Made by a program: the position numbers and the translations under genes
In this document: in pieces, positions 1,729 to 3,461 of the stretch
How positions within the stretch are numbered: the first letter of the stretch is position 1
Layout: each line of letters opens with the position of its first letter
IMG/VR virus record: IMGVR_UViG_3300010885_045978
Coordinates: 1-49,087 of that record
DNA length: 49,087 nucleotides
Direction: 5' to 3' (one strand)
Origin: a virus
The notes under the pieces: generated by a model
Told to the model about the DNA's origin: nothing
The model's input: only the letters and a program-made list of their open reading frames with translations
The model's database searches: none

Positions 1729-1788
1729 GCTGGGCTCCTTGTATGAGGACTAGAGTGGTTGGATGTTGATGCATCGTGAACCACATTC

Positions 1789-1802
1789 TATTTATATAAA
1801 TA
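1789..1802. promoter_or_regulatory. Overlapping divergent late promoters
   Basis: The 14-base string TATTTATATAAATA contains the exact T4 late box TATAAATA on the plus strand (1795-1802) and again on the minus strand (complement of 1789-1796). The plus copy points at the tmRNA gene starting about 1806; the minus copy points at the homing endonuclease starting at 1728. T4 late promoters need only this -10 box, recognised by gp55 with gp33 and the sliding clamp, so two can overlap. Confidence 0.7.
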
Positions 1803-1871
1803 AGTTTAATGGTCGTAAATTCGACTGTGAACCTGTCTGACACCCGGGAGGCATACCCGGCAGGTCCACCA

Positions 1872-1911
1872 GAAGATGCATAGAGATTTAGGTCTCTATG
1901 CATCTTCTTAT
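1872..1911 (+). other. Intervening hairpin removed from pre-tmRNA
   Basis: Between the acceptor CCA and the 5' G of the coding piece lies a perfect 16-bp hairpin: 1871-1886 pairs with 1893-1908 around loop TTTAGG. It joins the two tRNA-like halves, as in permuted tmRNA precursors, and would be cut out by 5' and 3' tRNA processing enzymes. It has no T-run, so it is not a terminator. Confidence 0.75.
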
Positions 1912-1994
1912 GGGCCTGAATGCATTCGACCAGCAGACTAGCAGAAAGATCGACTCGGTAAGACACGACCGCAAATCAGTCCAAAAATGTAAAT

Positions 1995-2030
1995 GTCAAC
2001 GACAATTACCCAATGGCAATGGCTGCGTAA
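1995..2030 (+). other. tmRNA tag-peptide reading frame
   Basis: The frame reads GTC AAC GAC AAT TAC CCA ATG GCA ATG GCT GCG TAA, giving VNDNYPMAMAA. With the tmRNA-borne alanine the tag would be AVNDNYPMAMAA. The NDNY core and the AA end match the tags of alphaproteobacteria, and the AA end is the ClpXP degron. The resume codon is taken as GTC by position; it could lie one codon away. Confidence 0.8.
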
Positions 2031-2142
2031 GCAACCCTAGTCGGAGTTTTCGTCAGGTTTTCTTGGCAACAGAATAAACCTGACACCTAAATACATCGTT
2101 CAGATATCTGAACATTCACACACATCACACACAGAGAAACCT

Positions 2143-2783: not shown

Positions 2784-3235
2784 TGCATATTACTATTGGT
2801 AAGCATGGATATCATTTCAATACAAACGCTATTAAGATCATTGAAGAAAAGTATAATGCCAAGTACATGGGTTACTGGTGCACTAAGCGTAATGGTGGTG
2901 AGTCGTGGAATGAGGTTCCAGTAGATGTTTTCTACGTAGAGAACCCTGACACCTCTAAGGGTCACACAAACTACTTTGGCATGTTCCGCAAGGGTGAGAA
3001 TGTTCTTATCACAGATGCATCTTCATGCTTTAATGATACCATTACAGGTGTGCTTTGCCCTGATGGTGAAGTTGCTGTATCTCGTTACCGCCATGATTGT
3101 CGTGCTGCTGGCTCTGGTGCAATTGATGGTGGGCGTGATTATATGAAGCTCATCGGCGAAGCATGTCGCTACCCAAAGGTTCATGTTACTGTTGAAGGCG
3201 GTGAGTTTACCTTCAAGGAGCTAACGAATGCTTGA
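2783..3235 (+). CDS. Hypothetical protein (150 aa)
   Basis: The start at 2783 overlaps the previous stop and has AAAGGAG nine bases upstream; a longer frame from 2711 would run through the previous gene and is not needed. The 150-residue protein is mixed alpha/beta with four cysteines and an RYRHDCRAAGSG segment followed by a glycine-rich DGGRDY stretch. I do not recognise the family. It sits directly before gp33 and overlaps it by 8 bases, so it is probably expressed with the replication genes. Confidence 0.65.
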   Translation: MHITIGKHGYHFNTNAIKIIEEKYNAKYMGYWCTKRNGGESWNEVPVDVFYVENPDTSKGHTNYFGMFRKGENVLITDASSCFNDTITGVLCPDGEVAVSRYRHDCRAAGSGAIDGGRDYMKLIGEACRYPKVHVTVEGGEFTFKELTNA

Positions 3236-3461
3236 ACCTAAGATCAGAACACCTACAGAGTTTGCTGCTGCTATTGAAGAGCTAGTATGGCAACATGATA
3301 TTGAATATCTAGATGCTGTGATTCTTTATTGTGAGCAAAATAATATTGAAGTTGAAACTGCTGCATCTCTTATTAAGATGAATGCAAACATGAAAGGTAA
3401 GCTTCAATCTGAAGCAGAAGTCCTTAACTTCCTTCCTAAAATCTCAAGGTTGCCTATCTAA
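3228..3461 (+). CDS. gp33: Late transcription co-activator gp33
   Basis: The 77-residue acidic protein matches the gp33 pattern: a TPTEFAAAIEELV helix, then YLDAVILYCEQNNIEVETAASLI, then a lysine-rich helix and a hydrophobic C-terminal end (LNFLPKI). In T4, gp33 binds the host RNA polymerase beta flap and, through its C-terminus, the sliding clamp gp45, activating transcription from gp55-dependent late promoters. T4 gp33 is about 112 residues; cyanophage-type versions are shorter like this one. AAGGAG precedes the ATG. The order gp33-gp59-gp32 is the same as in T4. Late promoters are present in this window. Confidence 0.85.
   Translation: MLEPKIRTPTEFAAAIEELVWQHDIEYLDAVILYCEQNNIEVETAASLIKMNANMKGKLQSEAEVLNFLPKISRLPI

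Follow-up and report, generated by a model that had tools for sequence, protein, structure and literature searches.

The tmRNA locus and its genomic setting

The window (the whole stretch of DNA that was analysed, 49,087 nucleotides) is a virus record of 49 kb and probably represents a fragment; it carries a two-piece tmRNA gene on its plus strand. Downstream of the tmRNA are gp33, gp59, and gp32 and, further on, T4-type head, tail, and baseplate genes. An earlier note, made from the sequence, had described such a gene in a T4-like phage. The carrier was confirmed as T4-like by gp33, gp59, gp32, and the baseplate genes in the surroundings, and the two-piece tmRNA was borne out by full-length matches to two Rfam models. 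The features of the locus are as follows:

1795–1802, plus strand: T4-type late promoter box TATAAATA (sequence match)
1811–1871, plus strand: acceptor (tRNA-like 3′) piece with encoded CCA at its end (RF04321 match, parse, co-fold)
1844–1860, plus strand: T arm, CCGGG-AGGCATA-CCCGG (parse, co-fold)
1861–1867, plus strand: acceptor strand CAGGTCC, with discriminator A1868 (parse)
1872–1911, plus strand: inter-piece segment, a 16-bp hairpin (−25.1 kcal/mol) and TTAT before the coding piece (folding)
1912–2088, plus strand: coding (mRNA-like) piece (alpha_tmRNA match to 2085; exact 3′ end inferred)
1912–1918, plus strand: acceptor strand GGGCCTG, at the start of the coding piece
1924–1930, plus strand: ATTCGAC motif, in the coding piece
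within 1912–2088, plus strand: 3′ stem GTCAGGTTT/AAACCTGAC of the coding piece, its loop with TGGCAACAGAA
1995–2030, plus strand: tag frame VNDNYPMAMAA-stop (translation, parse)
3228–3461, plus strand: gp33, late-transcription coactivator (phrog_254, Pfam PF16805; conserved neighbourhood by synteny)

In the Rfam scan, RF04321 (tmRNA_permuted) matched positions 1811–2030 (+) with 88.4 bits (gathering score 47, E 9.6e-16, model positions 1–213 of 213), and RF01849 (alpha_tmRNA) matched positions 1755–2085 (+) with 86.0 bits (gathering score 50, E 5.4e-22, model positions 1–355 of 355). The latter match includes the 3′ end of the coding piece, in agreement with the alphaproteobacterial type proposed earlier. 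Of the two kinds of search that the earlier note had named, the covariance models both scored above their gathering scores, while ARAGORN made no tmRNA call at the locus; most of the tested relatives were called by it. With RF04321, the majority of phage relatives and of bacterial genes scored higher than the window tmRNA (88 bits).

In every related phage record with gp33 in reach, the tmRNA is upstream of it on the same strand, 0.4–3.3 kb apart, and this placement is kept across divergent phages, including Melnitz and HTVC008M. SmpB was not found in the window or in Melnitz, HTVC008M, DLP_6, or RHph_I1_18. For the window phage, the host must consequently supply SmpB, unless the protein is encoded in the unseen part of the genome. 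The window also contains, at 2408–2496, a hairpin pairing over a ribosome-binding site and then a 21-aa ORF (MSQPTSFLLFAFTGIFTRPKK), both nearly unchanged in L002. This is the nearest contig (gp59 94% identical), and it is uninformative on the presence of the tmRNA, as it begins just past that position.

Structure of the tmRNA and comparison with other copies

The gene order is that of a permuted tmRNA, the acceptor half with CCA being followed by the coding half. The CCA at 1869–1871 and the third acceptor pair G1914–U1865 (G3–U70) were confirmed at base level, the acceptor stem (1912–1918 with 1861–1867) forms 7 of 7 pairs, and the ATTCGAC motif and the tag frame are present as described before. 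The 7-bp acceptor stem with G3–U70, the 5-bp T arm, the 7-nt loop, and a short tag frame with a stop and an AA C-terminus are all structural marks of two-piece tmRNAs. When the two pieces were co-folded without constraints, the acceptor stem, T arm, and 3′ stem were recovered, at an energy modestly below that of mononucleotide shuffles (z −2.1). The inter-piece segment is presumably removed on processing. Judged by its sequence, the window gene is a genuine two-piece tmRNA of a phage, probably functional, and belongs to a kind that has been reported before.

The acceptor stems of the copies compared are of several types with paired changes, GGGCCTG/CAGGTCC in the window versus GGGGGCG/CGCCTCC and GGGGGTG/CACCTCC in relatives, and the T stem also differs from that of the relatives by paired changes. 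The T-loop is GGCRGTA, as is usual for alpha_tmRNA, in nearly all parsed bacterial copies, and variable in the phage copies; the window does not have this loop, and its AGGCATA was found in no other copy parsed. Because the T-loops of accepted relatives include TGCGATA, TTCAATT, and others, GGCRGTA reflects a tendency rather than a strict rule. The T-loop had earlier been called non-canonical, which is correct in that AGGCATA itself is unusual, but alphaproteobacterial tmRNAs generally lack the canonical loop (mostly having GGCRGTA). Since the bacterial copies are non-canonical too, the loop is a weak sign of the specialised use suggested at that time.

Most tags among the copies have the form ANDN...AA, and the relatives retain full tags with an AA end. 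From the tag frame, we infer that the resume codon of the window is GTC (Val), a position occupied by Ala in nearly all relatives; apart from the window, a Val-start tag occurs at most in L098, a phage copy, as read by ARAGORN. The earlier note had suggested that the phage tag could take the place of the host tag and be degraded differently; its end, MAA, is also present in bacterial tags (L137, L150). Because its T-loop is unique among the copies parsed and its Val resume codon recurs at most once, partial decay of the window tmRNA is possible.

Occurrence and evolutionary history

Two-piece tmRNAs are more common in phages than the earlier note, which had called a phage-borne copy unusual, supposed. 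In the T4-like Methylophilales phage Melnitz (MZ577097), reported in 2022, a two-piece ssrA is annotated immediately upstream of gp33, and 53 two-piece tmRNAs were counted among the tmRNA structures in phage genomes (PMC9004378). RF04321 matched 16 of the 35 records related to the window via gp59, gp32, or a neighbouring ORF, many of the rest being short fragments, and a pattern for the acceptor region found 24 further viral contigs, all model-confirmed. Among alphaproteobacterial genomes, 131 of 142 had matches over the cut-off. A nucleotide search with the window tmRNA in phage and plasmid collections gave no match, nor did a megablast search of phages with 20 kb of the window as query, and RF04321 did not match the isolates closest by gp6, namely Caulobacter phage Cr30 and Sinorhizobium phages phiM12 and phiN3.

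Two unannotated copies were seen in isolates. Pelagibacter phage HTVC008M (KC465899.1, 145161–145370; L038, L077) has a two-piece tmRNA upstream of gp33, with the tag ANFNEYALAA (ARAGORN). In Stenotrophomonas phage DLP_6 (KU682439.2, 102838–103059; L105, L140), which infects a gammaproteobacterium, a two-piece tmRNA of 136.8 bits heads a tRNA array.

In a tree of 73 joined sequences and 187 columns, a short alignment with some long branches, 25 distinct phage copies formed one group (bootstrap 92), together with a single copy from a bacterial genome, apart from the sampled bacterial genes. The bacterial copy adjoins genes for a terminase and a major head protein, and is therefore itself phage-borne; this copy (L161 8001–8259, minus strand; G151, C5:288554–288812) is a second permuted tmRNA in an alphaproteobacterial genome. 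In a second tree run, whose supports are unsettled, the window was nearest to other phage copies and the grouping of phage copies was not rejected (p-AU 0.42). The HTVC008M and RHph_I1_18 copies had long branches and fell outside the main phage group. The data neither favoured a single clade of all 27 phage copies nor rejected it (p-AU 0.10), which leaves room for several captures. Taken as a whole, the trees are no more than suggestive of a separate phage group.

Promoter and timing of expression

The box of the late promoter proposed ahead of the tmRNA was found, TATAAATA being just upstream of the gene in a phage that also encodes gp33, as in a T4-like late gene. By T4 late promoter geometry, the predicted start of transcription is at about 1808, near the beginning of the acceptor piece. 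Four of the six exact TATAAATA boxes in the window are within 60 nt upstream of a gene and in the right sense (p 2e-5), with a fifth at 61 nt. In the stretch at 1789–1802, TATTTATATAAATA, each strand has a late-promoter box; one faces the tmRNA and the other the ORF at 1129–1728.

Across the copies compared, the window included, 9 of 18 distinct phage upstream regions had TATAAATA at −20 to −10 of the gene-model start, where 0.05 would be expected, and none of the 31 bacterial ones did. In seven of these nine, a sigma-70 −35 box (TTGACA or TTGACT) is placed exactly 17 nt upstream of TATAAATA, although these seven promoters may share ancestry and are not seven independent events. The −35 box is absent in the other two, L078 and the window; at the window promoter, none was found at a spacing of 15–19 nt from TATAAATA. 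Lacking this box, the window copy looks late-only. The pattern suggests an early-plus-late promoter in the Melnitz-type group and a late-only promoter in the window.

Proposed function

The window tmRNA is most likely a functional, late-expressed ribosome-rescue RNA. Building on the gene and its structure, together with the promoter box, the position conserved among phages, and the lack of SmpB in the window, we propose how transcription, processing, charging, tagging, and a benefit to the phage might follow. Transcription would occur late, from a T4-type promoter dependent on gp55/gp33, and start where the acceptor half begins. The inter-piece hairpin would be cut out by tRNA-processing enzymes of the host (RNase P at 1911/1912, with 3′ processing at the encoded CCA), which would leave two RNAs joined through the acceptor stem and helix 2. 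The molecule would be charged by the host AlaRS via G3–U70 and delivered by host SmpB to ribosomes stalled on broken messages; the unfinished product would be tagged with (A)VNDNYPMAMAA and then degraded by host proteases. The phage would gain free ribosomes late in infection, as cut or decaying mRNAs build up. We consider it likely that the window holds a complete permuted ssrA acting in this way.

The Val at the start of the window tag would fit a decoy or modulator role, in which the phage RNA and the host tmRNA compete for SmpB, AlaRS, or ribosomes, with less host tagging and phage proteins spared. For mycobacteriophage DS6A, a tmRNA-like RNA without a tag frame has been reported as an inhibitor of endogenous tmRNA (PMC11915505). 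A pure decoy, however, would need neither the intact frame with its stop and AA end nor the full AA-ending tags of the relatives, and such a role is unlikely. For Melnitz, whose ssrA was placed behind an inferred early promoter, early tagging and recycling of host proteins has been proposed (PMC9004378). The TTGACA or TTGACT found 17 nt upstream of seven of the nine TATAAATA boxes agrees with such a role, but the window and L078 have the late box alone, and in the other copies the −10 region is the exact late octamer; early action is, in our view, very unlikely. It is still harder to see the gene as a functionless passenger, either a captured host gene or the remnant of an integration site. 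tmRNA genes are common integration sites, and the window copy was unrecognised by ARAGORN, but the gene is complete and permuted with compensated stems, has a late promoter box, occupies the same location in divergent T4-like phages, and groups with phage copies.

Late ribosome rescue is thus the reading we prefer for the window. If the tmRNA is expressed, the phage would not depend solely on the host ssrA to rescue ribosomes during the peak of virion-protein production. More broadly, and with somewhat less than even confidence, we suggest that T4-like phages hold a long-standing ssrA lineage of their own as a dedicated late gene under the phage late-transcription machinery, so that the phage would control rescue and tagging at the late stage; an early sigma-70 −35 box would be joined to the late −10 box in some lineages, while the lineage of the window would be late-only. 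What is newer in the finding is that a phage late promoter stands immediately before the gene. This promoter pattern deserves to be followed up, and its comparison among copies sets against the published proposal of early-acting phage tmRNAs an alternative that can be tested directly.

Comparison with known systems

The ssrA of Caulobacter was reportedly recognised as a two-piece tmRNA by Keiler and colleagues in 2000. With the alphaproteobacterial two-piece tmRNAs (RF01849), the window copy shares the gene order, G3–U70, the CCA, a non-canonical T-loop, the TCGAC motif, an NDN tag ending in AA, and the 3′ stem with TGGCAACAGAA. Unlike them, it is phage-borne and has a late phage promoter box, a strong 16-bp inter-piece hairpin, and a Val-start tag. 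The window differs from Melnitz and HTVC008M in its acceptor stem, T-loop AGGCATA, and Val-initial tag, in lacking an Rfam-detected riboswitch and a sigma-70 −35 box, and in having at least three ORFs between the tmRNA and gp33. As in Melnitz (MZ577097, PMC9004378) and HTVC008M, in which no SmpB was found either, it is a permuted tmRNA of alphaproteobacterial type, encoded by a T4-like phage upstream of gp33, and it shares the TATAAATA box with Melnitz.
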